This document shows positions 3,823-57,412 of a DNA stretch of 64,000 nt, one piece after another; the first letter of the stretch is position 1, and every line of letters begins with the position of its first letter. This DNA comes from Petrotoga sp. 9PWA.NaAc.5.4 (GTDB lineage Bacteria; Thermotogota; Thermotogae; Petrotogales; Petrotogaceae). The notes under the pieces are model-generated. The model saw only the letters and a list, made by a program, of their open reading frames with translations. It was not told where the DNA came from and made no database searches. A program made the position numbers and the translations under genes. Location: assembly GCF_002895485.1 (NCBI RefSeq), contig NZ_AZRK01000044.1, forward strand, positions 124,001-188,000, read 5' to 3'.

Positions 3823-4291
3823 ACCTTAGAAATTATGAAGCTAAGATTCTATAATTTTTTTGACGCTTAGTTTTTTTTAAAAATACTTCATCAGCTCTAA
3901 TCCTTACAAAATATGAATTTCTTTAATTTTTTGCTACGTGTAGCTAAAGAGAGGGGGGGAGGGCTCCGCCCTGAACCTGTTATAAATTCAAATGCTTATT
4001 TTTAAAAACGTTTCATTTCTAAAGTTCTTATCTAATCCTTACTAACTGTGAATCTCTTTAACTTTTTCGCTACATGTACCGAGAGAGGGGAGAGGGCTCC
4101 GCCCTGAACCCATTTTAAATTCAAATGCTTATTTTTAAAAATGTTTCATTTCTAAAGTTCTTATCTAATCCTTACTAACTGTGAATCTCTTTAACTTTTT
4201 CGCTACATGTACCGAGAGAGGGGAGAGGGCTCCACCCTGAACCCATTTAAAATTCAAAACTTCGTTTTTAGAAAATTCTCATTTCTAACGT
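3823..4291 (-). repeat. Leader repeat array, three units
   Basis: One longer unit (3823-4025) and two nearly identical 133-bp units (4026-4158 and 4159-4291) lie head to tail. Each ends in ATTTCTAAAGT or a one-base variant and contains the GGGCTCCGCCC core; the third core is changed to GGGCTCCACCC. The ACTTTAGAAAT-like end (ACCTTAGAAAT) lies 34 nt from the start of the MBL-fold gene. A further fragment of the family ends at about 4361. The 273-nt open frame over the third unit is a by-product of the repeat, not a gene. Confidence 0.85.
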
Positions 4292-4417
4292 TCTTATATT
4301 ATACAATACGCACTTTAATAATTCTAAAAATCTTATTTTCTGAAAAATCACCATTTCTAAAGTATTTATTGTTATTTTTTTGTAAAATAAAACCATATAA
4401 TCTTTCTATAAAATATA

Positions 4418-4446
4418 TTGATATTCCTTTTTATCAGTGGTATAAT
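4418..4446 (+). promoter_or_regulatory. Sigma-70-type promoter of the first ABC exporter operon
   Basis: TTGATA at 4418-4423 and TATAAT at 4441-4446 are separated by 17 bp. A TG dinucleotide one base before the -10 box gives an extended -10. It lies about 55 nt upstream of the first exporter gene. Confidence 0.75.
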
Positions 4447-4499
4447 TTTGTAAGTAATCCAAACTATAATTCGCAATAGACTTCAGGACGGTGAATTTT

Positions 4500-6221
4500 T
4501 TGATCAAAGAATTTTTAAAAAAATATTGGTGGAGATACTTAATAGGCATAGTTTTTTTAATAATTGTTGATATTATCCAAATATTCATTCCTCGGCAAAT
4601 TGGGAACATAGTGGACATCTTAGATACAACAACTCCTGATTTGGCACAAATAAAAATTTTAATATTAAGTATTTTAATGTTAGCCTTTGGTCTTGCAATT
4701 GGACGATTTTTCTGGAGAATATCTATAATAGGTGCTGCAAATCTTTTTGAATACAAAACGCTTAATAAAATGTTTTTTCATATAATCGATTTAGATCAAG
4801 ACTTCTTTGATAAATGGAGAACAGGAGACTTAATGACAAGGTTTACATCAGATGTATTGAGTTTAAAACGTTTAATGGGTTTTGGAATAATTATGCTTGT
4901 TGATACTTTAGTCATGACTGTAATGACATTATTTGCTATGGGGAATTTTATTAATTGGAAGCTAACTTTTATTTCGATACTTCCTCTTCCTATTATAGCT
5001 TTTATTTCTTTGTTTTTTGGAAGAGCTATACATAGAAGGTTTAAAGAGTTACAAGAGATTACGTCTGATCTATCTAATGTAACCGAGGAAAATATAGCGG
5101 GTGTTGACGTTGTAAAATTGTACGCAAACCATGAGATTATGGAAAACATTTTTGACAAAAAATCTCAAGATTTCTATAATTCCTATATAAAATTAGTTAA
5201 AATTTGGGGTCTAATGTTTCCTTTAGCTATGATGGTGGGTCAATTAGCGACGATATTTGTTTTCAATTTTGGTGGACCGATGGTTATAAGCAACGAAATT
5301 ACACTCGGAGATTTTATAATGGCTAATCAATACATAGGTATGTTAATATGGCCGATGATGGCATTTGGCAATCTTGTAAACCTTACTCAGAGATCAAAGG
5401 CTTCTTTAAAGAGAATTAAAGAAGTTCTCAATCAAGAGAATTCGGTTAAAGATCCTCCACGAGAAGAATTTGATTTTAAGGGGAATTATGATATTAGGAA
5501 TCTCACTTTTAAATATCCTAATACTCAACGTGAAGTTTTAAAGCAAATTAATATGAATATAAAAGAAGGAGAAATGGTTGCTTTTGTTGGGAAGATAGGT
5601 TCTGGTAAATCTACACTTGCTAAATTATTAGTAAAACTTTATCCTGTTGATAGAGGTATGATATTCGTTGATGGTAAAGATATTAACGATGTCAATGGAA
5701 GGTTTATCAGAGACAACGTGTCTTATGTGCCCCAAGATAGCTTCTTATTTTCAATGACGATAAGAGAAAATATAGCTTTTGCCGATGAAAAATTAGAAAA
5801 TTCGGTAGAAGAATTTGCAAAAATATCGAACGTTCATGAAGATATAATGAATCTTGAACAAAAATATGAAACTATAGTTGGTGAAAGAGGGGCAACATTA
5901 TCGGGAGGGCAAAGACAAAGAGTAACTATAGCAAGGGCTTTGGCTAAACAAGCTAAAGTAATCATATTAGATGATTGTTTGTCTGCTGTGGATACTGAGA
6001 CAGAAGAAAAAATTATTAAAAACTTGAGAGTAGAAACAAAAGGTAAAACTCTTATAGTAATATCTCATAGGTTGAAGGCTGTAAAAGATTCGGATTCAAT
6101 TTTTGTTTTCGATGATGGCAGAATAGTAGAAGAAGGAAGTCACTTGGAACTTATGGCAAAAGAAGGGATTTATTATTCCATGTACACAAAACAGCTGATT
6201 GAAGAAAAATTGGGGGAATAG
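4500..6221 (+). CDS. Heterodimeric ABC exporter subunit with degenerate ATP site (TM287-like)
   Basis: A half-transporter of about 573 residues: six membrane segments in the first 300 residues, then a nucleotide-binding domain. Visible motifs are Walker A GKIGSGKST (about 363-371), signature LSGGQRQR (about 466) and Walker B VIILDDCLSAVD. The residue after the Walker B Asp is Asp instead of the catalytic Glu. That substitution marks the degenerate-site partner of heterodimeric exporters such as TM287/TM288. The partner follows after 2 bp. The TTG at 4500 has GGTGA 5 nt upstream; a GTG at 4491 is the alternative start. Likely a multidrug or lipid exporter in the cytoplasmic membrane; substrate unknown. 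Confidence 0.9.
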   Translation: MIKEFLKKYWWRYLIGIVFLIIVDIIQIFIPRQIGNIVDILDTTTPDLAQIKILILSILMLAFGLAIGRFFWRISIIGAANLFEYKTLNKMFFHIIDLDQDFFDKWRTGDLMTRFTSDVLSLKRLMGFGIIMLVDTLVMTVMTLFAMGNFINWKLTFISILPLPIIAFISLFFGRAIHRRFKELQEITSDLSNVTEENIAGVDVVKLYANHEIMENIFDKKSQDFYNSYIKLVKIWGLMFPLAMMVGQLATIFVFNFGGPMVISNEITLGDFIMANQYIGMLIWPMMAFGNLVNLTQRSKASLKRIKEVLNQENSVKDPPREEFDFKGNYDIRNLTFKYPNTQREVLKQINMNIKEGEMVAFVGKIGSGKSTLAKLLVKLYPVDRGMIFVDGKDINDVNGRFIRDNVSYVPQDSFLFSMTIRENIAFADEKLENSVEEFAKISNVHEDIMNLEQKYETIVGERGATLSGGQRQRVTIARALAKQAKVIILDDCLSAVDTETEEKIIKNLRVETKGKTLIVISHRLKAVKDSDSIFVFDDGRIVEEGSHLELMAKEGIYYSMYTKQLIEEKLGE

Positions 6222-6223
6222 TC

Positions 6224-8155
6224 ATGGCATCAGTTCACGAAGAGATCTTTTTAGAAGAAAAAGAGAAAAGCGAAGGTGATTTTAAGACTTTCTTTAGGTT
6301 GTGGGCATACATAAAAAAATATAAGATGTTGTTGGCTTTAACATTTATAACTTTAGCTATCGCCACTGTGATAGAACTTGCTTTACCTTACTTAATAAGA
6401 TACGGCATAGACAATGTTATAAATGTTCAATATTTTTTTGATTTAGATTATGAAGGGAATTTTGTTCAAGATGACACGGGAAATTATTCTTTGAAAAAGA
6501 TCGATAACAATTACTTCATGGTAGATAGACAAACGCAAGAAATGATCCAAGTCAACGAATCTGAGTATGCTCATTACTTTGATGATGCTATTAAACGTAT
6601 AAGGGTTTTCAGTATAACTTTTATCTTTGTGTTAGTTGCACAACTTTTTATGAATTATGGGCAAGTATACTATGCTAATGTGGTTGGCCAAAAGGTTATA
6701 TATAATATAAGGAAAGATTTATTCAAACATATTTTGAAGATAGAATACAAATATTTTGAAAAAAATCCACCGGGAAAAGTTACAACAAGAGTTGTTAACG
6801 ATACTCAAAACCTTTCAGATTTTTTTAGTGATGTCGTTACCAGCTTATTAAAAGATATAGCAATAATAACAGGTGTGGTAATTCTAATGATGCTTTTAGA
6901 TTTACAATTGAGTTTATATACAATAATAATGTTTCCTGTTATAATTATTGCAGTTATTATATTTAGAAAATTTGACAGAAGAGCCTATGATAAAGTAAGA
7001 ACAAGAGTTTCTGCACTTAACTCTTATTTGGCTGAGAATTTATCAGGTAGTTCTGTAACCAAGCTTTTTAATCAGGAAGAAAGAAAGAAAAACGAGTTTA
7101 ATTATATGAGTAATAATTTATATAAAGCAAATGTAGAACAAATGTATGTTTTTGCAATTTTTAGGCCTTTAATGAATCTTTTGAACTATTTAACTTTAAG
7201 TTTGGTATTATGGTTTGGCTCACAACTTTTAACAGATGGTCAAACTACTTTTGGTACTATATATGCTTTTACAGCATATATAGACATGTTTTTTAGACCT
7301 TTATTCGATATTGCTGAAAAATACGATATCATGCAAAATGCTTTTGCTTCTGCCGGGAAAATTTTCAAGATTTTTGATCAAAAACAGGAAGAGTTAGGAA
7401 AGGGTCTTTATACCACAATTGAAAAGGGAAAAGTTGAATTTGAAAACGTTAAGTTTTCATATGATGGTAACAATGAAATCTTAAAAGGTGTAAGTTTTAA
7501 AATTGAGCCGAACGAAAGGGTTGCTATAGTAGGAGAAACTGGATCAGGAAAAACAACTATAATTAAATTGATCAGCGGACTCTATAAGTATCAAGAAGGC
7601 AGAATATTAATAGACGATAAAGAGTTATATGATTATGATTTAAATATGCTTCGTAAAAAAATAGCCGTTGTTCCCCAAGATGTCTTTTTATTTTCTGGAA
7701 CAATTTTGGAAAACATGAGATTGTTTAATAAGTCAATTTCTGAAGAAGAAGTTAGAAAAGTTTCAAAATTTGTGTACGCTGAAGAAATCATTTCAAAACT
7801 TCCTAAGGCTTATAATACTATAATAACTGAAAGAGGAAGCACTTTGTCTTCTGGTGAAAGGCAACTTATTGCTCTCACAAGAGCGGTATTGTTTGATTCT
7901 AAGATAATTATTTTAGACGAAGCTACTGCAAATATAGACGTAGAAACAGAGTTCCTTATACAAAAAGCTTTGAATAAGATCTCTCAAAGGGCTACGATAA
8001 TTTCAATAGCGCACAGATTATCGACGGTAAAGAATTCTAATAGAATAATAGTAGTTCACAAGGGTTTAGTTGTTGAAGAAGGTACACATAGTGAGCTTTT
8101 AAACAAAAAAGGTATTTATTATGATTTGTATAGATTACAATTTGAAAATATTTAA
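6224..8155 (+). CDS. Heterodimeric ABC exporter subunit with canonical Walker B (TM288-like)
   Basis: The 643-residue partner of the preceding subunit. It has a membrane domain and a nucleotide-binding domain with Walker A GETGSGKTT (about 437) and Walker B IIILDEATANID carrying the catalytic Glu. The signature motif is LSSGE rather than LSGGQ, which fits a dimer with one good and one degenerate ATP site. An insertion of about 50 residues rich in Asp, Asn and Tyr (about 70-120) separates the first two membrane segments, so a larger external loop than in the partner is expected. It lies 2 bp after its partner. Confidence 0.9.
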   Translation: MASVHEEIFLEEKEKSEGDFKTFFRLWAYIKKYKMLLALTFITLAIATVIELALPYLIRYGIDNVINVQYFFDLDYEGNFVQDDTGNYSLKKIDNNYFMVDRQTQEMIQVNESEYAHYFDDAIKRIRVFSITFIFVLVAQLFMNYGQVYYANVVGQKVIYNIRKDLFKHILKIEYKYFEKNPPGKVTTRVVNDTQNLSDFFSDVVTSLLKDIAIITGVVILMMLLDLQLSLYTIIMFPVIIIAVIIFRKFDRRAYDKVRTRVSALNSYLAENLSGSSVTKLFNQEERKKNEFNYMSNNLYKANVEQMYVFAIFRPLMNLLNYLTLSLVLWFGSQLLTDGQTTFGTIYAFTAYIDMFFRPLFDIAEKYDIMQNAFASAGKIFKIFDQKQEELGKGLYTTIEKGKVEFENVKFSYDGNNEILKGVSFKIEPNERVAIVGETGSGKTTIIKLISGLYKYQEGRILIDDKELYDYDLNMLRKKIAVVPQDVFLFSGTILENMRLFNKSISEEEVRKVSKFVYAEEIISKLPKAYNTIITERGSTLSSGERQLIALTRAVLFDSKIIILDEATANIDVETEFLIQKALNKISQRATIISIAHRLSTVKNSNRIIVVHKGLVVEEGTHSELLNKKGIYYDLYRLQFENI

Positions 8156-8174
8156 TAGATAAGCGGTGATTACT

Positions 8175-9329
8175 ATGAAAGTTGAAGAAGATAATATTCA
8201 TGTAAAAAAAAGAAAAAACAAAAACTCTGCTTACACAAAAATTTTGAAAAGTGCTGTGGATTTATTCTCAAAAAATTGGTATGAAACTGTTTCAGTTTCG
8301 CAAATATGCTCTAATGCAGATGTTTCAAACGGGACTTTTTACATTTATTTTCATAATAAAGAAGAACTTTTCAAAAAATTACTACAAAATTTTATTGAAA
8401 TAGTGGAAGAAGAGTTCAAATATTTAAAAGTAGTCGATATTGAAGATGGATTAGAAGAATTTTTAAATACTATTCACAAAATTAAAAAAGAATATAGTAA
8501 ATTAATAACTATTTTTAGAGAAGGACAGTATCGTTTTCCTGAGTTTGATAGAAAGATAAACGATATATATAAAAAATCAGCAGAAAAGATTTACAAAAGA
8601 GAGTTAACTCTTTCTGAGTATATTTATTTCATTTCTGGAATCCGTTTTTTGCTTATTAGATCGTTATATCAAAATATGCCTTCGGATAAAGAAATTGTGA
8701 AAAAAATCATTATGAACGGTTTTTTTGAAGAAAACTTAAAAATAAGAAGCAATTTATTTAAAGAGAATTTTATAATTCCTTTTGAAATTAATTTGGAAAA
8801 TACTCGTGAAAGACTTATACAATCTGGAATAGAATTGTTTGGGAAATACGGATTTTTTAACACGGACATTCATGACGTAGCAAAAAATGCCGGTTTTTCT
8901 GTTGGGACTTTTTATATACATTTTAATAGTAAAACAGAGTTTTTAAGTGAAATTGTTAGGTTGATTGGTAAGAGAACTCGCTGGTTTATTAGTTATAATT
9001 TAGACAATGGTTTGAATAGAGCAGAAAAAGAGTTACAAGGGCTTTATCTTTTTCTGAAATTTTTTGAAAATCATAGTGAATACTATTATATTTTAAGAGA
9101 AGCGGAGTTTATCGTTAATGATGTTGCTCAAGAATATTACGATAAATACGAAGAAGGTTATTCTAAAGACCTAAAGGAGATAAAATATCCCGAAATAAAG
9201 ATTATTTCAAATATGCTTATAGGATTGTCTCATTATTCAGGGATTGAATACATAATTTTAAAAAGGATCGAAAATCTGGAAAATTACCTTTTAGAGTTGG
9301 CTCCATTGTTATTAAATGGCTTAAAATAG
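8175..9329 (+). CDS. Tandem (double) TetR-family transcriptional regulator
   Basis: About 384 residues, roughly twice a normal TetR protein. Two TetR-type helix-turn-helix domains are visible, one near the N-terminus (ILKSAVDLFSKNWYETVSV ... NGTFYIYFHNKEELF) and one at about residues 209-255 (RLIQSGIELFGKYGFFNTDI ... VGTFYIHFNSKTEFL), each followed by its own helical ligand/dimerisation-like region. The gene is 19 nt downstream of the exporter pair on the same strand and probably regulates it. SD GGTGAT precedes the ATG at 8175; an in-frame GTG at 8166 overlaps that SD. The double arrangement is confirmed in sequence; the regulatory target is inferred. Confidence 0.88.
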   Translation: MKVEEDNIHVKKRKNKNSAYTKILKSAVDLFSKNWYETVSVSQICSNADVSNGTFYIYFHNKEELFKKLLQNFIEIVEEEFKYLKVVDIEDGLEEFLNTIHKIKKEYSKLITIFREGQYRFPEFDRKINDIYKKSAEKIYKRELTLSEYIYFISGIRFLLIRSLYQNMPSDKEIVKKIIMNGFFEENLKIRSNLFKENFIIPFEINLENTRERLIQSGIELFGKYGFFNTDIHDVAKNAGFSVGTFYIHFNSKTEFLSEIVRLIGKRTRWFISYNLDNGLNRAEKELQGLYLFLKFFENHSEYYYILREAEFIVNDVAQEYYDKYEEGYSKDLKEIKYPEIKIISNMLIGLSHYSGIEYIILKRIENLENYLLELAPLLLNGLK

Positions 9330-9373
9330 TTTTACAACTTCCAAGTAGATATATTTTTAACAGAGGTTTTAAA

Positions 9374-10138
9374 ATGTATATAAAAGCTTTTGGAAAAGTT
9401 AACTTATACCTTGATGTTTTAAATAAAAGAAGCGACGGGTATCATAATATATTGACTCTTTTTCAATCTATTGAAGAGTATGATGATATTTTTGTAGAAT
9501 TTTCTGAAAAAGAGTTTTTTGAGTCAAACATTGATTTACAGATACCTTGGCATAAAAATATACTAAAAAAAACCATCGACACATTTAAAAAAGAGACAGG
9601 AATAACGAATTTCAATTTAAATATAAAACTTATAAAGCGTCTTCCCATTGGAGGAGGAGTCGCAGGAGGAAGTGCTGATGCTGCTGCTGTATTGAGTTTT
9701 CTTAGCAAGGAGTTTAATATTTTGGAAAGCGATACTGTTAAAATAGCTGAGAATATAGGAAGTGACGTTCCTTTTTTGTTAAAAGGTGGAACGGCAATCG
9801 GAAAAGGCAAAGGAGAAATTTTAGAATTTCTCCAACCTTTAAAAATAAACATCGAACTATTCCCTATGGGTATAAGTATAGACACAAAAAAAGCGTATGA
9901 GAAATTAGATAAAAATTGGGAAAATATAATTCACAAAGGAGATCCATACGTGTTGTATAAAGCTTTAAAGGAAAATAATATTAAAGTTGCCCGAGAAAAT
10001 GCGTTTAACGTTTTTGAACAAATAGTATTTAAAGACTATCCAGAATTGAAAAGAAAAAAAGTATTAACGTCTCAAAAGAAAGGTACTATTTTTTCTTTGA
10101 TGACAGGATCCGGTAGTACTATCTTTAGAGTTTATTAA
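9374..10138 (+). CDS. ispE: 4-diphosphocytidyl-2-C-methyl-D-erythritol kinase
   Basis: A GHMP kinase of the non-mevalonate (MEP) isoprenoid pathway; it phosphorylates CDP-methylerythritol at the 2-hydroxyl. The start is typical (KAFGKVNLYLDVL, with the substrate Lys) and the ATP loop LPIGGGVAGGSADAAA at about residues 90-105 is diagnostic, followed by GSDVPFLLKGG with the catalytic Asp. At 254 residues it is slightly shorter than many family members, mainly at the C-terminus, but the last motif MTGSGSTIF is present. It is 44 nt after the TetR gene and may be co-transcribed. It converges with the next gene with 7 bp between stops. Confidence 0.95.
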   Translation: MYIKAFGKVNLYLDVLNKRSDGYHNILTLFQSIEEYDDIFVEFSEKEFFESNIDLQIPWHKNILKKTIDTFKKETGITNFNLNIKLIKRLPIGGGVAGGSADAAAVLSFLSKEFNILESDTVKIAENIGSDVPFLLKGGTAIGKGKGEILEFLQPLKINIELFPMGISIDTKKAYEKLDKNWENIIHKGDPYVLYKALKENNIKVARENAFNVFEQIVFKDYPELKRKKVLTSQKKGTIFSLMTGSGSTIFRVY

Positions 10139-10145
10139 TTAATAA

Positions 10146-10430
10146 TCAATAATCTTTGTAGTCGTTTAGCTGATATTTGTTGTCCATTTTATAGACAAAT
10201 GCGATAATTTCGGCTGCAATATCGTACAATTCAGGCGGGATTTCTTCTTCTAAATCTAATCCGTAGAACTCTTCTACAGCCTTCTCGCTTTTAATGATTG
10301 GGATATTTTCTTTTTGCGCAATTTCAATTATCTTTTCAGCTATTAGTTCCATCCCTTTAGCAACCACCTTAGGGGCCTCATCTATACCGCTTTTATACCT
10401 TAAAGCAACAACCTTCCGTTTTTCCTGCAT
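10146..10430 (-). CDS. Stand-alone FlhB C-terminal domain-like protein
   Basis: A 94-residue soluble protein resembling the cytoplasmic C-terminal domain of the flagellar export switch FlhB/Ysc[21 protein letters not shown] near the start and the pattern [16 protein letters not shown] match that domain after its autocleavage point. The cleavage tetrapeptide NPTH and all membrane helices are absent. Such proteins (FlhX or FhlB-like) occur alongside full FlhB in many flagellated bacteria, with a proposed role in export-gate function. It follows threonine aldolase by 2 nt and is translationally coupled to it, away from other flagellar genes. Confidence 0.82.
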
Positions 10431-10432
10431 AT

Positions 10433-11467: not shown

Positions 11468-11497
11468 AAGATGCCTCCTTAAAAATTTATTTTACTG

Positions 11498-11718
11498 TCT
11501 TTAGAAATTATAAATCTTTATTATATGTATATTTTAGCGTTTTATTATATGTATATTTTAGCGTTGATTCTTTTACAAAATACCTCCCCACTTCTAATCC
11601 TTACTAATTCATAATTTCTTTACCTTTTTCGGTACTTGTACCGAGAGGGGAGAGGGCTCCGCCCTGGACCCATCTTAAATTCAAAAACTTAATTTCTGAA
11701 AATTATCATTTCTAAAAT
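11498..11718 (-). repeat. Leader repeat element with an internal 24-bp tandem duplication
   Basis: A single full-length copy with CTTTAGAAAT and ATTTCTAAAAT ends. The hairpin CGGTACttGTACCG and the GGGCTCCGCCC core are both perfect. A perfect 24-bp direct duplication occupies 11517-11540 and 11541-11564 in the gene-proximal arm. The element lies 31 nt upstream of the threonine aldolase start. Confidence 0.85.
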
Positions 11719-11755
11719 ACCTAAATTTATTTGAATTTGTAAAGGATTCAAAACG

Positions 11756-12613: not shown

Positions 12614-12734
12614 AGATATTCCTCCACTCAAAAATTTCATTTTGAAAAATTATATCAAATATTATTCTTCACTATGTTAAAGTTCTAACTAACATAAATT
12701 AAAAATTCTTTATAAAAATAACTTGTTTTTGAGG

Positions 12735-12740
12735 TATAAT
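12735..12740 (+). promoter_or_regulatory. Putative -10 box before the YkuK-like gene
   Basis: TATAAT lies about 50 nt upstream of the gene. No convincing -35 hexamer is found 16-18 bp before it, so this is a partial promoter call. Confidence 0.4.
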
Positions 12741-12786
12741 TAAAAAGATACTTTAAATGTTTTAGAAATGTAACCTTAAACTCAAA

Positions 12787-22885: not shown

Positions 22886-22917
22886 AATATAACCTCCCTA
22901 ATTTTTAAATTTTACTG

Positions 22918-23082
22918 TCTTTGTAAATTTTAAACTTCTTATTATTGTATGTATGTTTTAAATTTGAATTATTATATAATATTGATTCTCGTTACTTGTA
23001 GCTAAGGAAGGTGGAGAGGGCTCCGCCCCGGGCACATTTTAAATTCAAAAGCTTATTTTTCGAAAATTTTTATTTCTAAAGC
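22918..23082 (-). repeat. Leader repeat element, diverged
   Basis: The GGGCTCCGCCC core and the ATTTCTAAAG end are present; the gene-proximal end has changed to CTTTGTAAAT. The element is 33 nt upstream of the glycosidase start. A second half-copy of the proximal arm (ACTGTCTTTATAAATTATAA) follows at about 23099-23120. Nothing else is seen in this 298-bp gap. Confidence 0.75.
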
Positions 23083-23183
23083 GTTTAGTTTTTAATATAC
23101 TGTCTTTATAAATTATAAAATTTATATTTTATCAAAATTTTAATGTTTAATTCTTCATGAAATGTCTCCTTATTTTTAGTATT

Positions 23184-26182: not shown

Positions 26183-26214
26183 AATAAAACCTCCTTTTAA
26201 AGTAAAGTATACCC

Positions 26215-26413
26215 GCTTTAGAAATTCCAAAATCCTTATTTTATATATGTTTTAGATTTGAATTTTTATATAATACCTCTCTGTTTATAATCCCTATTAA
26301 TTCCTATTTTTTTAACTTTTTGGTACTTGAACTGAAGGAAAAGGGAGAGAACTCCAACCTGGATCCATTTTAAATTCAAAATTCTATTTTTAGAAAATTA
26401 TCATTTCTAAAAT
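26215..26413 (-). repeat. Leader repeat element, core degenerate
   Basis: The ends CTTTAGAAAT and ATTTCTAAAA are kept, but the core reads GAACTCCAACCTGG, so the GC hairpin is lost. It lies 33 nt upstream of the binding-protein start, between it and the ROK gene. Confidence 0.7.
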
Positions 26414-26425
26414 TCCTACTTATTC

Positions 26426-36610: not shown

Positions 36611-36690
36611 TTACTGTATTTAAAAATTTAAAATCCATTTTTATATGCGCTTTAGATTTAAATTTTTTCAAAAAACCTCTTCAATTGGAA
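36611..36690 (-). repeat. Partial leader repeat (proximal arm only)
   Basis: TACTGTATTTAAAAATTTAAAATCC and the following T-rich run to CAAAAAACCTCTTC correspond to the gene-proximal arm of the repeat. The hairpin core is absent. It lies about 28 nt before the second binding-protein gene. Confidence 0.45.
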
Positions 36691-45494: not shown

Positions 45495-45671
45495 ATGTTA
45501 TTAAAAAAGATAAAAAGAAAAACATTTTGATCTTTATTGAAAAAAGCCAGAATTGTACAAAGAGATGATGAAAAAGAAAATTTAAAGATTATAGGTGATG
45601 GATTAGGAGATAAAGGGTATAGAGGATTTAGCATAGCAAATTATATGAAACACAATTATAAAATTTATTAG
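45495..45671 (+). pseudogene. Possible gene remnant with early stop
   Basis: A strong GAGGAGG is followed by ATG at 45495, but the frame stops after 11 codons (TGA at 45528). The same frame then continues open for 46 codons to a TAG at 45669, reading ... IIGDGLGDKGYRGFSIANYM ... . This has normal protein composition. I do not recognise the family. It may be the stump of a gene truncated when the adjacent repeat inserted at 45674. Confidence 0.4.
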
Positions 45672-45673
45672 GG

Positions 45674-45874
45674 ACTTTAGAAATGAGAATTTTCTAAAAA
45701 TGGAATTTTGAATTTAAACTGGGTCTAGGGCGGAGCCCTCTCCCCCTCCTTCGGTAAAAATACCGAAAAAGTTAAAAAAATTAAGAATTAGTAAGAATTA
45801 GAAGTGGAAAGGTATTTTTGGAGAAACTAAACGTCAAAACATTTATAGAATCTGTGTTTCATAATTTCTAAAGT
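45674..45874 (+). repeat. Leader repeat element, full length 201 bp
   Basis: Perfect 11-bp ends ACTTTAGAAAT and ATTTCTAAAGT, the GGGCGGAGCCC core, and the hairpin CGGTAttttTACCG read in this orientation. An extra diverged proximal arm runs on to about 45966, ending 31 nt before the second mannosidase. GTAGGGAGGTAACTAC at 45890-45905 within it is an orphan Shine-Dalgarno-like site. Confidence 0.88.
45818..45871 (+). other. Short open frame inside the repeat (17 codons)
   Basis: AAAGG then TTG at 45818 opens a frame reading MEKLNVKTFIESVFHNF and stops at the TAA inside the repeat end. The copy at 52731-52784 has the same length and 14 of 17 residues the same. The three nucleotide differences are all non-synonymous, so coding is not supported by substitution pattern. 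Confidence 0.25.
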
Positions 45875-45996
45875 GAGTAACATTATAACGTAGGGAGGTA
45901 ACTACTTCAAACACAAGATATTAAAAGTTAGTTAAATTCTGTGTCTTAGAATTTCTGAAGTCAGTAAAAAATTTATAAGTAGGAGGAAACAAATCA

Positions 45997-49065: not shown

Positions 49066-49070
49066 ATTAA

Positions 49071-49094
49071 AAAGGGTGGAGAAATCCACCCTTT
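49071..49094. terminator. Terminator between the mannoside locus and the hydrogenase operon
   Basis: AAAGGGTGGA and TCCACCCTTT form a perfect 10-bp stem with a GAAA loop, followed by TATTTTA. It lies between convergent genes and can serve both. Confidence 0.85.
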
Positions 49095-49097
49095 ATT

Positions 49098-50834
49098 TTA
49101 TAGCCACTCTCTTTCTAAATATTTAGTGTGCAACAAGTGATGTGCTTTTTCACTACCTGGTTTTTCTAGATATTCGTTGTAAAGTCTAACAATCGATGGA
49201 TTTTCGTGAGATTTTCTAATCAATTTTGTTCTATCAATTACATTTAATGCGTCTATACGTTTTTTGATTATGGTGAAGTTCCCATGATGATAAGGTTGTC
49301 CCCCTCCACCAACGCATCCTCCAGGGCAAGCCATGATTTCTATTAAGTGAAGTTGAATCTTTCCATTTCTAATATCTTCTAAAAGTTTGCGAGCATTGCC
49401 TAAACCATAAGCAACACCTACTCTAATAATCTTTCCATTGATTTCAATTTCTGCGACTCTTGTAGATTCATAACCATGTAAAGCAGTGAATTCAACAGCT
49501 TTTAATTCTTTACCGGTGATCCATTCATAAGCAGTTCTTAAGGCTGCTTCAGCTACTCCCCCTGTTCTACCAAATATTGCAGCAGCTCCTGTTGATTCTC
49601 CTAATGGGCTATCGTATTCCATTTCTTGAACTGCTTTGAAATTAAACCCGGCTTCTTTTATCATTTTTGCTAATTCTCTGGTGGTTAATACATAATCTAC
49701 ATCTTTGTAGTCGGGACTAGAATTTATCTCATCTCTTGCTGATTCATATTTTTTTGCCAAACAAGGCATAATAGAAACAACGGTCATATCTTTTGGATCG
49801 ATATTCTTTTTTTGAGCATAATAACTCTTTGCTATAGCGCCAAACATTTGTTGTGGAGACTTAGCGGAAGAAGGCATCTCAATCAAATCTGGAAATTGAT
49901 GTTCAAGAAACTTAACCCATCCTGGACAACAAGATGTTAACATAGGCATAAAACCACCAGTTTCTAACCTTTCTTTAAATTCAGTAGCTTCTTCCATTAT
50001 GGTTAAATCGGCGCCAAAATTTGTATCAAATACCGCATCAAAACCCATCAATTTTAAAATTCCCACTAATTTACCAGTAGAAATAGTTCCGGGTTCATAT
50101 CCAAATTCTTCTGCTAAAGCAACTCTTACAGCTGGAGCGGTTTGCACGACAACGTGCTTTTTCTCATCTTCAAGCTCTTTCCATACTTCGTCTATATAAG
50201 ATCTCTCAACTAAAGCACCTGTGGGGCAAACTGCCACACATTGGCCGCAGAATGTGCATGCAGTTTCTTCAAGCGGTAAATCAAATGTTGGTTTAATAAC
50301 CGCATTAAATCCTCTGTCCATAGCAGATAATACTCCAACAGTCTGAAACTTATTACACATAGTTTCACATTTTCTACACATGATGCATTTATTCGGATCC
50401 CTTATAATAGCTGCTGAAATATCTTCTTTATAATCGGAAGTTTTTCCAAAAAAAGGATTTTTAACAATATTGAGTTCAGACGCTATTCTTTGAAGATCAC
50501 ATTCCCCATTTTTTGAACATTTTAAACAATCTTGAGGATGATCAGATAATAACAGTTGAACAGCCGTTCTTCTTGCTTCCACAGCCTTCCGTGAATGTGT
50601 TCGAATTTTTAAACCTTCAGATACAGGTGTTGTACACGCTGGAGCAAGTGTTCTTCTCCCCTCTATTTCTACCATGCATACTCTACATGAAGAAGGCTTG
50701 TTTTCTATATTAATATCCTTCAAATTCATATAACACAAAGTTGGAATATATCCTCCAAATTTTTGTACTGCCATTAAAACCGTGTCGTTTTCAGATGCTT
50801 CAAATTCATTATCATTTATATAAATTTTTGGCAT
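49098..50834 (-). CDS. hydA: [FeFe]-hydrogenase catalytic subunit HydA
   Basis: 578 residues. N-terminal [2Fe-2S] plant-type domain (CYMNL ... SCRVCMVEIEG), a His-ligated cluster segment (DHPQDCLKCSKNGEC), two [4Fe-4S] clusters (CIMCRKCETMCNK and CTFCGQCVAVCPTGA) and the H-cluster domain with L1 TSCCPGWVKF (about 300), L2 MPCLAKKYE (about 354) and L3 MACPGGCVGGGGQPY (about 500). It lacks the extra C-terminal [2Fe-2S] domain of the 645-residue Thermotoga maritima HydA. With the NuoF- and NuoE-like genes upstream it forms a probably bifurcating NADH/ferredoxin hydrogenase. Confidence 0.95.
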   Translation of the reverse strand: MPKIYINDNEFEASENDTVLMAVQKFGGYIPTLCYMNLKDINIENKPSSCRVCMVEIEGRRTLAPACTTPVSEGLKIRTHSRKAVEARRTAVQLLLSDHPQDCLKCSKNGECDLQRIASELNIVKNPFFGKTSDYKEDISAAIIRDPNKCIMCRKCETMCNKFQTVGVLSAMDRGFNAVIKPTFDLPLEETACTFCGQCVAVCPTGALVERSYIDEVWKELEDEKKHVVVQTAPAVRVALAEEFGYEPGTISTGKLVGILKLMGFDAVFDTNFGADLTIMEEATEFKERLETGGFMPMLTSCCPGWVKFLEHQFPDLIEMPSSAKSPQQMFGAIAKSYYAQKKNIDPKDMTVVSIMPCLAKKYESARDEINSSPDYKDVDYVLTTRELAKMIKEAGFNFKAVQEMEYDSPLGESTGAAAIFGRTGGVAEAALRTAYEWITGKELKAVEFTALHGYESTRVAEIEINGKIIRVGVAYGLGNARKLLEDIRNGKIQLHLIEIMACPGGCVGGGGQPYHHGNFTIIKKRIDALNVIDRTKLIRKSHENPSIVRLYNEYLEKPGSEKAHHLLHTKYLEREWL

Positions 50835-50847
50835 TAATTATTCCCTC

Positions 50848-52305
50848 CTAAACTATATTGATAGCGTTAAATCTGCAAGTTGAATAACAAGAACCACATT
50901 TAATACATTTTTCTTGGTTAATAAAGTGTGGCTTTCTTAATTCGCCTTCTATCGCCTCTGTCGGACATACCCTAGCACATGCAGTACATCCAGTACATAC
51001 ATCAGGGATTATTTCATATTTTATTAAATTCTTGCAGACTCCTGCTGGACAGTCTCTATCTAAAATATGAGCACGATATTCATCTGCAAAATAAGTATAT
51101 GTCGAAATAATTGGATTTGGAGACGTCTGTCCTAATCCGCAAAGTGAGGCATTCTTTACAACGTTAGCCAAGGAAATCATCCTGTCTAAGTCTTCCAACT
51201 CAGCATTCCCCGAAGTAATCTTTTCTAAAATTTCTAAAAGCCTTACATTACCAATACGGCAAGTTGTACATTTACCGCAAGATTCGTCAACAGAAAATTG
51301 AAGATAAAATTTTGCTACGTCTACCATACAAGTATATTCATCCATGACTATCATACCGCCAGAACCCATCATGGAACCCAACTTTTGAAGACTATCGTAA
51401 TCTATAGGAGTATCTAAATATTCAGCTGGTATACAACCACCAGATGGGCCGCCAGTTTGCACAGCTTTGAATTTTTTATCTTCTTTTATACCCCCACCTA
51501 TGTCATAAATAATTTCTCTTAACGTTGTTCCCATAGGGACTTCTACTAAACCGACATTTTTAACGTCTCCGGCTAATGCAAATACCTTAGTACCGGAAGA
51601 AGTTTCTGTACCAAATTGTCGGAACCATTCAGCACCGTTAAGTACGATAGGAGGAATATTAGCAAGTGTTTCTACATTATTTATTAGAGTAGGTTTTCCC
51701 CATAACCCTTTGTTTGCAGGAAAGGGTGGTTTATTTGTAGGTTCACCTCTTGATCCTTCTATGGAATGAATTAAAGCAGTTTCTTCACCACATACAAAAG
51801 CCCCAGCACCAAGCCTGATTTCTATATTAAAAGAAAAATTAGTGCCCAATATATTCTCCCCTAAAAAACCATATTCTTCTGCTTGAGCAATAGCTGTTTT
51901 CAATCTTGAAACAGCGAGAGGATATTCTGCTCTGATATATATAATTCCCTTTTTTGCACCAATTACGTAAGCTGCTATAGTCATTCCTTCTAAAACAGAA
52001 TGAGGATCTCCTTCAAGTACTGATCTATCCATAAAGGCTCCTGGATCTCCTTCGTCTGCATTACATATTACATATTTTTCATCACCTTTAGCTTGCATTG
52101 TGAATTTCCATTTTAATCCTGTAGGAAATCCACCGCCTCCACGTCCTCTCAAATTGGAAGACATAACGGTTTCCAATATATCTTCTCTCCGTGACTCTAA
52201 TGCTTTGGCAAGGGCTAAATAGCCATCGTTTTTTAAATAATCTTCAATTTTTTCTGGATCAATGTTTCCAGCATTTCGTAAAACAATTCTAACCTGCTCG
52301 GCCAT
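50848..52305 (-). CDS. hydB: Hydrogenase NADH-binding subunit HydB (NuoF-like)
   Basis: 485 residues: NADH/FMN-binding Rossmann part ([18 protein letters not shown] and [18 protein letters not shown]), the [4Fe-4S] motif [11 protein letters not shown], and a C-terminal ferredoxin with [12 protein letters not shown] and [12 protein letters not shown]. The N-terminal [2Fe-2S] domain found in the 626-residue T. maritima HydB is encoded separately just upstream. The ATG shares its A with the TAA of that gene. Confidence 0.95.
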
Positions 52306-52694
52306 TATCTTCCCTCCAATTGAAGAGCATTTTTATGTGTTTCTTTTATTACCAAATCTTCTAATATTTTCCCTTCTATTAGATGAGTTTTTACTAAATC
52401 ATTAACTTTTTTTTCAGTCACATTCCCGTATAGAATTGGTTTTTTACCTGGTTCGTCAATTTCTACAGTTGGCTCTGCGTAACAATATCCAAGACATCCC
52501 GTTTTTATAACTTTTACGTTTGATAGTTTTTTCTCTTGTATTATTTTTAAAAGTTCGTTGTAAGTGTCTTCGGCACCAGAAGAAACTCCACATGTTCCTA
52601 AGGCAACTTTTAAATAAATGCTTTCCTTGTCTTTTTTTTCTTTTAATTCCTTAATTAATTTTCTTAATTCATCTGTGTTTTTCAACTTAGGCAT
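52305..52694 (-). CDS. [2Fe-2S] thioredoxin-like ferredoxin, split-off N-terminal part of HydB
   Basis: 129 residues with the thioredoxin-like [2Fe-2S] fold: [18 protein letters not shown] and [18 protein letters not shown] hold the conserved cysteines. In T. maritima this domain is the start of HydB; here it ends with a TAA that overlaps the hydB ATG by one base. The combined length (614) matches the fused form. TAGGAGGAAT precedes the ATG, and a repeat element lies 34 nt upstream. Confidence 0.9.
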
Positions 52695-52727
52695 AATATA
52701 TTCCTCCTAAATTATTTGTATTTACTC

Positions 52728-52928
52728 ACTTTAGAAATTATGAAACTCAGATTCTATAAATGTTTTGAACTTTAGTTTCTCCAAAAATACATCCCCATTT
52801 CTAATTTTCACTAATTCTTAACTTTTTTAACTTTTTCGGTATTTATACCGAAGGAAGGGGAGAGGGCTCCGCCCTGGACCCATTTTAAATTCAAATGCTT
52901 ATTTTTAGAAACGCTTCATTTCTAAAGT
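52728..52928 (-). repeat. Leader repeat element inside the hydrogenase operon, 201 bp
   Basis: The best-preserved copy: perfect ACTTTAGAAAT (52728-52738) and ATTTCTAAAGT (52918-52928) ends, stem TTCGGTA/TACCGAA at 52835-52852, and stem AGGGC/GCCCT at 52863-52875. It interrupts the gap between hydC and the [2Fe-2S] gene, which would otherwise be about 95 bp. Confidence 0.9.
52731..52784 (-). other. Short open frame inside the repeat (17 codons)
   Basis: TTG at 52784 with GGGGATG upstream reads MEKLKFKTFIESEFHNF and stops in the repeat end. It matches the frame at 45818 in length and most residues. Translation is unproven. Confidence 0.25.
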
Positions 52929-52990
52929 TCTATATTTGTATTTTACCAAACCAAACCGATATAATTCGAGAGTTTGCAAAAGTAAAATCT

Positions 52991-53500
52991 TTAAGCTTGC
53001 TTTTCTTTTGTTTTATATTCTCTAATTATTCTTAGCACATCAGTTGTTTTTAATCTACCGTAGACCTTTTCACCGATCTTTACTACAGGAGCTAATCCAC
53101 ATGCTCCCAAGCATCTAACCGGATGAATAGAAAATAATCCATCTTCTGTTACTTCTTCTTCTCCAATATTCAAAATTTTCTTGAATTCATCCAATATTTG
53201 ATTGGCTCCCCCTACATAACAAGCAGTTCCTAAACAAATACTTATAGGATATTTACCTTTTGGCTTTGTAGAAAAGAAGTTGTAGAAGGTAACTACGCCA
53301 TATACTTCTGAAGCAGGTAGCCTCAACTTTGCAGCAACCATTTTTTGTACTTCCAGCGGGATATATCCTAAAGTTTCCTGAACTTTATGCAACACTTCTA
53401 TAAGATAACTTCTACGTTTTTGTTCGGAATTTTCATTCAAATCTAGGGAATCAAGAAATTCATTTATTTTGGTTAATTTTGAATCAAGAATATCTTCCAT
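52991..53500 (-). CDS. hydC: Hydrogenase subunit HydC (NuoE-like [2Fe-2S] protein)
   Basis: About 169 residues: helical N-terminus and a thioredoxin-like [2Fe-2S] domain with CLGTACYVGGANQI and RCLGACGLAPVVKIGEKVYG. It transfers electrons between HydB and HydA in the trimer. A frame open to 53536 is ignored because GAAGGGAGGAC precedes the ATG at 53500. Gene order hydC-hydB-hydA is as in Thermotoga, but with a repeat inserted after hydC. Confidence 0.94.
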   Translation of the reverse strand: MEDILDSKLTKINEFLDSLDLNENSEQKRRSYLIEVLHKVQETLGYIPLEVQKMVAAKLRLPASEVYGVVTFYNFFSTKPKGKYPISICLGTACYVGGANQILDEFKKILNIGEEEVTEDGLFSIHPVRCLGACGLAPVVKIGEKVYGRLKTTDVLRIIREYKTKEKQA

Positions 53501-53534
53501 TTTTAACGTCCTCCCTTCCATAGTTAATATACTC

Positions 53535-53940
53535 ACTTTAGAAATTATGAAATTCAGATTCTATCTTAGTTTTTTCAAAAATACTTCCTAAACGCTAATT
53601 CTTAAAAAATATGAATTTCTTTGACTTCTTCTCTACGTATAGCTAAGGAGAGGGGGAAGGGCTCTGCCCTGGACCCATTTAAATTCAAAAGCTCATTTTT
53701 AGAAAATCATTATTTCTAAAGTTCCCATTTAATTCTTTTAACTTCTTGGCTACGCGCAACTAAAAAGAAAGAAGAGGGCTCTGCCCTGGACCCATTTAAA
53801 TTCAAAAGCTCATTTTTAGAAAATCATTATTTCTAAAGTTTCAATTTAATTCTTTTAACTTCTTGGCTACGCACAACTAAAAAGAGAGAAGAAGGCTCTG
53901 CCCTGGACCCATTTAAATTTAAAAGATTATTTTCTAAAAT
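53535..53940 (-). repeat. Leader repeat array, three units
   Basis: Units at 53535-53722, 53723-53839 (117 bp) and 53840-53940, each with GGCTCTGCCC-type cores and TTTCTAAAGT-type ends. The gene-proximal end starts 35 nt before hydC. From 53941 to 54084 only AT-rich sequence is seen. Confidence 0.85.
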
Positions 53941-54089
53941 CCCCAATAGTTAAAAAATTCACAGATATACCATAACCATCTTTCTTTTTCATCTTATTAT
54001 ATCATATGTAAAAACAAAAACATTTAAAAACAATTAAAATGCTTGTTTCTTTTTTCACAAAATGTAACTAAATTTATCGGCATTAAAAA

Positions 54090-54105
54090 AGGGGCGAGAG
54101 CCCCT
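54090..54105 (-). terminator. Terminator of the dehydrogenase gene
   Basis: AGGGGC and GCCCCT form a 6-bp stem with a GAGA loop (minus-strand reading), followed on that strand by a T6 run, 8 nt after the stop codon. Confidence 0.85.
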
Positions 54106-54112
54106 ATTAATT

Positions 54113-55258
54113 TTAAAATTCTATCCATGTACAATTTTTATTCGCACTTTCCAAACATTTTTCAATAAATTTCATTCCAATCACTCCCTGTTCAACTGTA
54201 GGAAAGTCTAAATCTTCTTGGGTTAATATTTCACCTTTTTTTCTTTTGATAATTGCGTTTATAAACTTTTCATAAATTCTTGCAAAAGCCTCTATGTAAC
54301 CTTCTTGATGGCCACCAGGAGTAACATAATCTTGTTTTATGTATTCACTAATTTCTTTACTACCTCTTGACAATCTCAAAAAAGGATGGTCAATAGTAGA
54401 AATTTTTAAATAATTAGCTTGTTCTTGCGACCATTCAATAGAACCTTTAGTTCCGTATATACCAAAGTTTAAATTGTTTTCGTGTCCTATTGCAATTTGG
54501 GAAGTCCAGTATATACCTTCAGCTCCATTATCAAAATTCACTAATATGGAGGCATTATCATCCAGTTTATTTTTTTCTATGAACTTATCCATTCTTGCAC
54601 ACAATGATTTTATCTTCAAACCTGTTATAAAAGATACTAAATTTTCAACATGAACTCCTATATCAGCTACACAGTTTGACAATCCTGAAAATTTAGGATC
54701 AGAACGCCATTCATGTCGAGGGATTTTACCCTCAAAAGGAACTTTAGCCATCCAATCACTTATGTACTGTGCATTTACAAACCTGATATCTCCTATTTTT
54801 CCGCTTCTTACTAAATCTCTTGCAAATCTTACCATAGAATAACCGGTATAGGAGTAAGCTACCGCAAATATGAGTTTATTATTTTTAGCTATGTTACTTA
54901 ACTCATTTGCTTGATCTAAAGTTACAGTTAAGGGTTTTTCACACATTACATTTATGCCACTTTCCAAAAATTTTTTTGCTATTTCGTAATGTGATACATT
55001 AGGAGTAACTATAGAAACAAAATCTATTTTATCAGGTCTTTTAGATTCTTCTTCAGCCATTTCTTCGTAGTTTCTGTAAAGCCTTTTTTCTTCCAATTTC
55101 AGTTCTTTGCCAGTGATCAAAGTATTTTTAAAATCTCTGGAAAACGCACCACACACTAATTCAGCGTTATTGTGCAAATTAATTGCTTTTCTATGAACTA
55201 TACCTATTTGAGAATTTTTTCCGCCTCCAACCATACCGTAAGTCAATTTTTTACTCAT
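54113..55258 (-). CDS. Gfo/Idh/MocA-family sugar dehydrogenase
   Basis: 381 residues. A Rossmann NAD(P) domain starts MVGGGKNSQIGIVHR, and the catalytic Lys lies in VMCEKPLTV (about residue 99), followed by the alpha/beta substrate domain with GVHVENLVSF (His about 204). It oxidises or reduces a sugar or inositol-type alcohol; the exact substrate is unknown. AAAGGGGG precedes the ATG. It is 75 nt downstream of the esterase gene on the same strand and probably co-transcribed. Confidence 0.92.
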   Translation of the reverse strand: MSKKLTYGMVGGGKNSQIGIVHRKAINLHNNAELVCGAFSRDFKNTLITGKELKLEEKRLYRNYEEMAEEESKRPDKIDFVSIVTPNVSHYEIAKKFLESGINVMCEKPLTVTLDQANELSNIAKNNKLIFAVAYSYTGYSMVRFARDLVRSGKIGDIRFVNAQYISDWMAKVPFEGKIPRHEWRSDPKFSGLSNCVADIGVHVENLVSFITGLKIKSLCARMDKFIEKNKLDDNASILVNFDNGAEGIYWTSQIAIGHENNLNFGIYGTKGSIEWSQEQANYLKISTIDHPFLRLSRGSKEISEYIKQDYVTPGGHQEGYIEAFARIYEKFINAIIKRKKGEILTQEDLDFPTVEQGVIGMKFIEKCLESANKNCTWIEF

Positions 55259-55333
55259 ATTTTAAACCCCCTTTTACTTTTATAAATAAGTACTCTTATT
55301 CCAAAAAACTTCTTTTTTAAATTATCAAACTTT

Positions 55334-56161
55334 TTAATATAGCTCTATAACCTCTGTAAAAAACCTTAAAACTTCCTTTATCTCTTCTTTCCATAAAAGC
55401 CAATTATGTTCTCCATCTCTAATATACAATCGTGAGGGGATGTTCTTCAATCTTAATTGATGATGTAAATCACAAGTTCCTAAATAGAGATAAAAATAAT
55501 CATTGTTACCACATGATAAATAAACAGGCAACTCCAGATCATTTTTTTTCACGTTATCTATAAAGTTGAAAATATTTTCTTTTTCCCAAAAATCTGCATC
55601 AAATGGCCAACCAAATGCATCGTGATAAAAATCTTCATGGATGTTAATTTCGTTTCCCTCTAAATCTATATCTTTTTCTGGTGGAGCTTCTTGCATTATT
55701 GCTCCACTTAGGCTTGCTACAGCCAAGAACTTTTCAGGATATTTAAAAGCAAATTTTAAAGCACCATATCCACCCATAGATAAACCTGCAATAAACCGGT
55801 TAGATCTATCAGTATAAACTTTATACTGCATTTCTATGTGGTTCATAAGATCGTTTATAATCGCACTTTCATATTTCTGACCATTTGGAGAATCCACATA
55901 CCAACTATTTTTTGCATCTGGCATAACTGCAACGAAAGGAGCAATTTCATAATTTTTTATCATAGAATCCAAAGTTTGATCTATATGTCCTTTTCTAATC
56001 CAGCTTAACTCATTTCCATTATGACCGTGCAATAAATAAATCACAGGATATTTTCGAGAATCTTTAGAATATTTAGGAGGAAGATATATAGAATAGTTCA
56101 TATTATTTTTCAATGTATTACTAAAAAATGAAACTGATTGATAAAGAATTCCATCCGTCAA
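55334..56161 (-). CDS. Esterase D/feruloyl esterase-like alpha/beta hydrolase
   Basis: About 275 residues of the putative-esterase family. Nucleophile Ser in GLSMGGYGALKFA (about residue 127), acid and His in the second half (YFYLYLGTCDLHH and DGEHNWLLWKEE, the latter carrying the catalytic His). The oxyanion strand is VIYLLHGHNGNELSW. No signal peptide, so intracellular; possibly deacylates imported oligosaccharides. AAGGAG precedes a run ATG ATG GTT TTG; the TTG at 56161 has the best spacing, though the ATGs at 56170/56167 are possible. Confidence 0.88.
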   Translation of the reverse strand: MTDGILYQSVSFFSNTLKNNMNYSIYLPPKYSKDSRKYPVIYLLHGHNGNELSWIRKGHIDQTLDSMIKNYEIAPFVAVMPDAKNSWYVDSPNGQKYESAIINDLMNHIEMQYKVYTDRSNRFIAGLSMGGYGALKFAFKYPEKFLAVASLSGAIMQEAPPEKDIDLEGNEINIHEDFYHDAFGWPFDADFWEKENIFNFIDNVKKNDLELPVYLSCGNNDYFYLYLGTCDLHHQLRLKNIPSRLYIRDGEHNWLLWKEEIKEVLRFFTEVIELY

Positions 56162-56189
56162 AACCATCATCTCCTTATGGATCAATTTT

Positions 56190-56839
56190 AAATTAAAAGT
56201 TTATTTTCGAAGCTGCTCTTTTCAAAAATACCTCCATAGTTTTAATTTCGACTAATTCTATATTTTTTAGCTTCTTAGGTAACTTGTGGCCAGAAAAGGG
56301 GAGAGGGCTCCGCCCTGGACCCATTTTAAATTCAAACGCTTATTTTTAAAAAGTTCTTATTTCTAAAGTCCACATTTAATTTCTTTAACCTTTTTGGTAC
56401 TTGTAGACAGAAAAGGGGGAAGGGCTCCGCCCTGAACCCATTTTAAATTCAAACGCTTATTTTTAAAAAGTTCTTATTTCTAAAGTCCACATTTAATTTC
56501 TTTTATCTTTTTTGGTACTTGTAGCCAGAAAAAGGGGAAGGGCTCTGCCCTGGACCCAATTTAAATTCAAAAGCTTATTTTTAAAAAGTTCTTATTTCTA
56601 AAGTCCACATTTAATTTCTTTAACCTTTTTGGTACTTGTGGCCAGAAAAGGGCAGAGGGCTCTGCCCTGGACCCAATTTAAATTCATACGCTTATTTTTA
56701 AAAAGTTCTTATTTCTAAAGTCCACATTTAATTTCTTTAACCTTTTTTGGTACTTGTAGCCAGAAAAGGGGGAAGGGCTCTGCCCTGGACCCAATTTAAA
56801 TTCAAACGCTTATTTTTAAAAAGTTCTTATTTCTAAAGT
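56190..56839 (-). repeat. Leader repeat array, five units of about 117 bp
   Basis: Unit ends fall at 56369, 56486, 56604, 56721 and 56839, giving a 117/118-bp period after a longer proximal unit. Each unit has a GGGCTCCGCCC or GGGCTCTGCCC core and ends ATTTCTAAAGT. In the proximal arm, GGAGGTATTTTTG opens a 10-codon frame (56225-56193, minus strand). This is the largest array in the window and lies before the esterase gene. Confidence 0.9.
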
Positions 56840-57012
56840 TCCTAAAAATGTTTATAGTTTTTAACTTTCGTAAAAGCAAACTTTTATGAATCTTTGAGAA
56901 TATTATATCATAATTTTCTTATATAAATTGTATGAGTTCATCCGATAAACATAAGACTGAAGCGAACAAATAAAGATGATTGTTAAATATTAACATATAA
57001 ATCATTAAAAAA

Positions 57013-57041
57013 TTGACTTTTTTTAAAATTTGGATTATAAT
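57013..57041 (+). promoter_or_regulatory. Consensus promoter of the marR-ABC operon
   Basis: TTGACT at 57013-57018 and TATAAT at 57036-57041 with 17 bp between. The start codon is about 390 nt downstream, beyond two repeat units. Confidence 0.82.
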
Positions 57042-57070
57042 ATATTGGTTAGCTTACTAACTAATATATT
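57039..57070. promoter_or_regulatory. MarR-type operator over the -10 box and start point
   Basis: AATATATTGGTTAG and CTAACTAATATATT form a 14-bp inverted repeat with one mismatch and a 4-nt centre. The TTAG...CTAA core is common in MarR-family sites. Overlap with the promoter predicts autorepression. Confidence 0.8.
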
Positions 57071-57071
57071 G

Positions 57072-57412
57072 GAGATTTTAGAAGTGCAAGCCTTTAAAAA
57101 ATAATGTTTTGAATTTAAAACGGGTTCGGGGCGGAGCCCTCCCTCTCTCCTTAGTTGCACGTAGCTAAGAGGTTAAAGAAATTCATATTTTGTGAGAATG
57201 AGATATAGACTTTAGAAATGATAATTTTTTAAAAATAGAATTTTGAATTTAAAATGGGTTTAGGGCGGAGCCCTCTCCCCCTTCCTTGGCTACAAGTACC
57301 AAAAAAGGTAAAGAAATTAGGAATTAGTAAGGATTAGAAGCGGGGAGGTATTTTTGAAAAAACTAAAATTCAAGACAATTATGCAACCTAAGTTTTAGAA
57401 TTTCTAAAAATA
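57072..57412 (+). repeat. Two leader repeat units between promoter and marR
   Basis: Units at about 57072-57208 and 57209-57412, both with GGGCGGAGCCC cores. The second starts with a perfect ACTTTAGAAAT and ends 29 nt before the MarR start. GGGGAGG then TTG at 57354 opens a 14-codon frame ending at 57398 (MKKLKFKTIMQPKF). Confidence 0.87.

Follow-up and report, generated by a model that had tools for sequence, protein, structure and literature searches.

Miniature inverted-repeat elements in a Petrotoga genome that probably insert at a fixed distance before Shine-Dalgarno-like sequences

Among insertion sequences (ISs), the ISAjo2 type of the IS1202 family in Acinetobacter is ~1.5 kb long and is found in a single orientation, with 5 bp between it and its recognition site, the XerC site of pdif/dif (PMC10132070). 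IS1272, of the IS1182 family, replaces inverted repeats and leaves no duplication (PMC5678879). No IS that targets the Shine-Dalgarno (SD) sequence was found in the searchable literature, the coverage of which is incomplete, so this absence is no proof. Here we describe a repeat of ~210 nucleotides (nt) in a 64,000-nt stretch of Petrotoga sp. 9PWA.NaAc.5.4 (hereafter the window; contig NZ_AZRK01000044.1, positions 124,001 to 188,000), which stands upstream of genes with constant orientation and spacing. It is, with high probability, a miniature inverted-repeat transposable element (MITE) mobilised in trans by a DDE-type IS of the IS4/IS5/IS1182 kind, the transposase of which would cut at a set distance from an SD-like motif, and the observed pattern would reflect this preference together with purging. 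We know of no bacterial MITE, such as Correia, RUP or ERIC, with both a fixed orientation and a fixed SD distance. When searched as text, a review on the MITEs of prokaryotes (PMC10969869) yielded nothing on the SD, ribosome binding, a common orientation or the start codon.

In the sense of the downstream gene the element runs TAGGGACTTTAGAAATGA..TTTTCTAAAAATAAGCTTTTGAATTTAAAATGGGTCCAGGGCGGAGCCCTCTCCCC..CGGTACAAGTACCG..AATTAGTAAGGATTAGAAGTGGGGAGGTATTTT..AATTTCTAAAGTGAGTA, with terminal inverted repeats at both ends (ACTTTAGAAAT ... ATTTCTAAAGT), and its alignment holds neither a conserved open reading frame (ORF) nor a transposase gene. The window is part of contig C43 of a 2.22 Mb draft genome, in which a DNA search returned 77 matches to the element. 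At up to 3 mismatches the genome has 414 occurrences of the 17-nt 3' end (AATTTCTAAAGTGAGTA) and 27 of the reversed control, a number not due to chance. The copies thus run into the hundreds, most of them decayed. The MITE was seen in the same family only, and none was found outside it. All eleven places listed by the sequence-only reading are present in the window (Table 1), and the element turns the same end towards the gene at each. Four of them needed redrawing: the copy before the fliL-like gene (143-221) is an internally deleted form of ~80 nt, the glycosidase site (22918) holds two copies and not one, the copy at 56190 has lost its last ~35 nt, and the site at 45674 is not a single element but a full MITE (45669-45878) stacked on a solo left end of the putative parent IS (45890-45965).

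Placement was assessed in an unbiased sample made up of nearly all of contig C1 (300 kb) and the window, together 364 kb or ~16% of the genome; genes were called with a simple codon/SD model and elements by profile at E ≤ 0.05. The 110 profile matches cover 4.7% of the sequence and none lies inside a gene. A match occurs in the 75 nt upstream of 60 of the 325 genes (~18%), in all 60 cases on the strand of the gene, and the next gene is on the same strand for 46 of 47 matches to the 17-nt motif with up to 2 mismatches. The outcome named beforehand as contrary to a fixed placement, namely copies in both orientations, inside genes or at random distances, was thus not seen. An interval of 28-35 nt to the start codon had been claimed, which is nearly right: sites in the window with an intact 3' end measure 25-30 nt, and in the larger sample the interval to the called start codon is mostly 24-33 nt with a mode of 27-28. 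The SD is the tighter anchor. In 32 of 41 cases the last G of GGAGG lies 18-19 nt from the 3' end of the element, and the standard deviation of this distance is 1.2, as against 1.9 to the start codon; SD-to-start spacing correlates with the start-codon distance (0.78) but hardly with the SD distance (0.09), which indicates that the element is anchored on the SD and not on the start codon. Few elements were detected in 360 kb of stretches from Petrotoga-type genomes, and their readable 3' ends lie mostly before GGAGG or a G-rich SD. Three apparently opposite matches there are 5'-only remnants at one orthologous place.

The flanks of the element carry the marks of transposition. An initial test on 51 copies gave 37% with a flank-repeat score that only 1.6% of mismatched flank pairs attain, and target duplications of 8-13 nt accompany 42 of 88 full MITEs, compared with 1.8% of flank pairs drawn at random. 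Where a GGAGG-like motif is present (n = 38), the duplication stops exactly 5 nt short of it in 35 cases, 6 nt in two and 7 nt in one. Even the internally deleted copy is flanked on both sides by TTAAAACCTA, which ends 5 nt before GGGGG; the ATG called at 232 for the fliL-like gene falls within this apparent duplication. Sites with and without the element are found among relatives. The argG-argH spacer contains it in this genome; of the two g4 genomes, one has a diverged copy there and the other a remnant, and the six Petrotoga-type (g3) genomes have no element. The element before htpG is present here and in none of the 11 relatives in which htpG was found, and among the species of genus g3 some have and others lack insertions, from a diverged subfamily, in front of pyrH and another gene. 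That the repeats are a mobile element is very likely.

A candidate for the source of the transposase is found in the same genome. Its one intact DDE_Tnp_1 transposase (G000:C2:50663-51913, L183) belongs to an element of ~1.6 kb and is bracketed by ACTTTAGAAAT repeats identical to the ends of the MITE; the gene-facing MITE end agrees with the left end of the IS at 21 of 21 nt, the other MITE end with its right end at 13 of 13 nt. The protein of 417 amino acids scores 34-37 bits with PF01609 (DDE_Tnp_1) and 37.5 with PF05598 (DUF772), the Pfam gathering score being 23, and the DDE-type motifs CIDSYP, LADAAYDS and YNKRTLIESIFSK can be read in it. The nearest curated model is IS1182 (55.9 and 73.5 bits, far below the NCBIfam cut-off of 270), and the best of the IS5 models reaches 40.8 bits, below a cut-off of 140. 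Like the MITE, the IS faces an SD, that of an apt-like gene, with its left end, and the 10 nt ATATATATAA occur on both sides of it. Relatives of the transposase occur in 13 of 103 Thermotogota genomes, in seven genera; no plasmid record was found to carry one. The left ends of IS copies L186, L187, L189, L190, L198 and L207 lie about 14-18 nt before GGAGG, and the same holds for the distant copies L191, L193, L195, L197 and L202, with transposase identity down to 34%. The IS left ends that face GGAGG at nearly this distance come from seven genera.

The target seems to be a motif and not a gene. A logo of the flanks shows GGAGG at +15 to +19 and otherwise little but A/T in its two opening positions. 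The 5-nt gap recurs in seven 5'-only units, which break off at model position 135, the GGAGG inside the element beginning at 141; in L010, L018 and L028 the remainder of an older element follows after that gap. Within the window, the MITE at 45669-45878 stands in front of GGGAGG in the left end of an older IS, away from any gene start. In G012 and G016 (L032) a near-consensus copy with the duplication AGAGTTATTT precedes GGAG by 5 nt, again at a place without a gene start. A related uninterrupted sequence in G008 (L220) reads as protein-coding; because the left flank in G012 and G016 departs from it, we take the site to be a gene remnant. The SD-like sequence itself is therefore likely to be the target. 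AGGAGG inside genes is occupied in 0 of 92 cases, which fits purging of such insertions.

Several observations weigh against so simple an account. Half of the 88 full copies have no visible duplication, the copies have diverged, and only one intact transposase is left in the genome. One copy on C1 (183645-183855) has a duplication, the motif next to it is GGGAAG, and no gene was called nearby on the strand of this copy; among the distant IS copies L206 faces GGAGC and L208 lies ~5 nt further away. Intergenic AGGAGG other than SDs is occupied at 1 of 26 sites, as against 30 of 92 at SDs; 14 of the 26 are within MITEs. This last disparity, and the fact that the polarity of the element follows the gene, could point to a target defined by transcription or translation, with an open promoter, an R-loop or an SD-bound 30S subunit drawing in the transposase. 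We regard such recruitment as unlikely, given that the GGAG(G) of the gene remnant and the nested insertions into MITEs and the IS keep the 5-nt rule, and that the position tracks the motif and not the start codon.

The absence of copies inside genes, and the fact that all copies face the gene, might also be produced by random insertion followed by selection for copies that serve as promoter or leader in the right orientation and at the right distance, the more so as MITEs can carry promoters. A benefit to expression, however, does not predict a duplication that ends exactly 5 nt before GGAGG (35 of 38), the nested sites and the gene remnant follow the same rule, and the long IS is placed alike though its transposase points away from the gene. 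We consider this origin very improbable.

Equally remote is the possibility of a 5' leader distributed by recombination, in the form of a conserved cis-regulatory RNA (riboswitch, thermometer or attenuator), to which the fixed orientation and distance and the small hairpins AGGGCGGAGCCCT and CGGTACAAGTACCG, present in many copies, could be attributed. Rfam 15 contains no family that matches the element at the gathering threshold, and a relaxed threshold gave chance-level matches only. A search for covarying structure with RNAalifold over 63 copies retained only 4 pairs, and the mean folding z is −1.3 in sense and −1.6 in antisense, so that folding is no better than that of the opposite strand. 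The genes downstream are unrelated and share no pathway, and neither the target duplications nor the ends held in common with an IS are expected of a leader RNA. The small hairpins make no case for a conserved regulatory RNA. Of the two readings first offered for the repeat, a MITE-like element with strict target choice is upheld and a cis-regulatory leader is not; the description of the family as structured holds only weakly.

Transposition directed by the motif would account for these features as follows. At the level of sequence, the case for it consists of the terminal repeats shared with the IS, the duplications, the 5-nt rule, the polarity, the like placement of MITEs and ISs in several genera, and the empty sites. 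From these we infer that the IS mobilises the MITE in trans and that its transposase itself reads the motif in DNA. The transposase would pair two element ends, engage GGAGG, and cut one strand 5 nt before it and the other strand 8-13 nt further upstream. The left end, which is the 3' end of the MITE, would be joined on the motif side, and filling in of the stagger would yield the target duplication. The gene would retain its SD and start codon, and its native upstream DNA would be shifted by 0.2 kb (MITE) or 1.6 kb (IS), an insertion presumably harmless to the host. Insertions in genes would be lost and those before SDs would persist and decay. The copies that survive would thus share one orientation and one distance to the gene downstream, because most intergenic GGAGG sequences are SDs and insertions within genes are purged. 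Repeated insertion at one SD would build arrays with a duplication of ~10 nt between successive copies, and together with nested insertion at the internal GGAGG of the element would give many of the head-to-tail arrays.

Elements that arrived as parasites might secondarily have come to drive many genes, the left end of the MITE acting as an outward promoter. An AT-rich stretch with TATAAT-like sequences lies near the gene-facing end in several subfamilies, and the native upstream DNA has been displaced by ~0.2 kb; on the other hand, the −10-like boxes vary between subfamilies, and a scan of one copy for sigma-70 promoters and terminators found nothing, a consensus promoter included. Such a role is possible, on balance unlikely. 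A broader proposal, that an IS clade evolved an SD-directed rule and that its MITEs replaced the 5' leaders of about one in five genes of a single genome and are today the source of promoters or regulation for many of them, is rather doubtful.

Table 1. Copies and remnants of the element in the window, with the evidence for each.
Feature	Position	Strand	Basis
Internally deleted MITE (~48 nt of the 5' part fused to ~38 nt of the 3' part) before fliL-like gene	143..221	+	profile matches 143-190, 184-221
Full MITE before MBL gene (3058-3789)	3819..4029	-	profile; 3' end 28 nt from start
Pair of head-to-tail 5'-only units (model 2-135) with nested-insertion junctions	4031..4295	-	profile
Further remnant beside the preceding units	4310-4364		
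MITE before threonine aldolase gene	11494..11723	-	profile; 25 nt from start
MITE with diverged 3' end before glycosidase gene	22913..23082	-	profile; 27 nt from start
Second, older copy, 3' half, upstream of glycosidase MITE	23099..23175	-	profile, model 135-211
Full MITE before binding-protein gene	26211..26417	-	profile; 27 nt from start
MITE 3' half before second binding-protein gene	36618..36688	-	profile; 28 nt from start
Full MITE before GGGAGG of older IS left end; no gene start there	45669..45878	+	profile
Solo left end of putative parent IS, before mannosidase 2	45879..45965	+	near-identical to L186 left end; 30 nt from start
Full MITE before hydB [2Fe-2S] gene, duplication AATACAAATA	52724..52930	-	profile, duplication test
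Full MITE before hydC	53531..53725	-	profile; 29 nt from start
Two partial units (117-nt type) upstream of hydC MITE	53730..53940	-	profile
MITE without last ~35 nt before esterase gene	56201..56371	-	profile, model 4-175
Four 117-nt partial units, head to tail	56376..56844	-	profile
5'-only unit (model 3-135) ending at nested-insertion junction	57072..57203	+	profile
Full MITE before marR (57441)	57207..57408	+	profile

Further features of individual copies were observed. The 117-nt units at 53730-53940 and 56376-56844 correspond to the 5' part of the element and follow each other head to tail in the manner of a minisatellite; they have no GGAGG where the nested-insertion rule needs one, so we take them to be products of tandem amplification and not of insertion. 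One subfamily (52724-52930 and others) contains an internal GAGGAGGTATT followed by a short frame, TTG AAA AAA CTA ... TAA, of ~17 codons; this candidate leader ORF was dropped since it is broken in other subfamilies. In the Petrotoga-type genus (L037-L039) the ends of the element are kept and the middle differs, with other GC-rich hairpins, and the interior looks as if it had been exchanged between subfamilies. The 5'-only remnants at the orthologous place mentioned above lie at ~24,500 in G012, G018 and G014 (L164, L170, L176), near a gene on the opposite strand, and their original orientation is not readable. The MITE-hosting gene-remnant site is flanked by an inverted repeat, TTTTATCCCTGCAA ... 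TTGCAGGGATAAAA (L032/L033, ~1440-1800). Copies 183645-183855 and 183862-183980 of C1 (L041-L055) stand back to back, facing apart, the left one being the only such case in the sample. Upstream of the intact transposase (L183) the sequence reads CCTCCTTACGAT ... ATCGTAAGGAGG, and the transposase SD could pair with an upstream CCTCC stretch; this pairing might keep down translation from transcripts that read through into the element, as happens in certain other ISs.

A mobile element depends on insertion sites that are common and do no harm, and the SD would qualify in many bacteria: insertion there would spare genes, and the site would exist at most translated genes. If the rule holds, the transposase would have a short recognition motif and a fixed polarity, both directly testable, and might serve to place DNA just upstream of translation starts. 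That one MITE family can rewrite the leaders of ~18% of genes, as in the 364 kb sampled, matters for the annotation of Petrotogaceae and for expression studies in them.

Correia, RUP and ERIC MITEs are short and non-coding, with many intergenic copies, terminal inverted repeats and ends shared with ISs, and the Petrotoga MITE resembles them in each of these respects. The IS5 family, the target duplications of which are ~4 bp, has DUF772 and DDE_Tnp_1 in common with the Petrotoga transposase, which scores below all curated cut-offs. The IS1182 family supplies the nearest curated transposase model, again with a score below the cut-off; its members are known for structured targets, and IS1272 shows by analogy that related transposases can have unusual ones. 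IS1202/ISAjo2 elements target dif/pdif, leave 5-bp duplications and encode a TnsB-like transposase with helix-turn-helix domains, whereas the Petrotoga element targets the SD, leaves duplications of 8-13 nt beside GGAGG and encodes a DUF772 and DDE_Tnp_1 protein, features that do not fit that type. In behaviour, ISAjo2 is nonetheless the best parallel, with one orientation, a distance of 5 bp from a short recognition site and a transposase of similar length.

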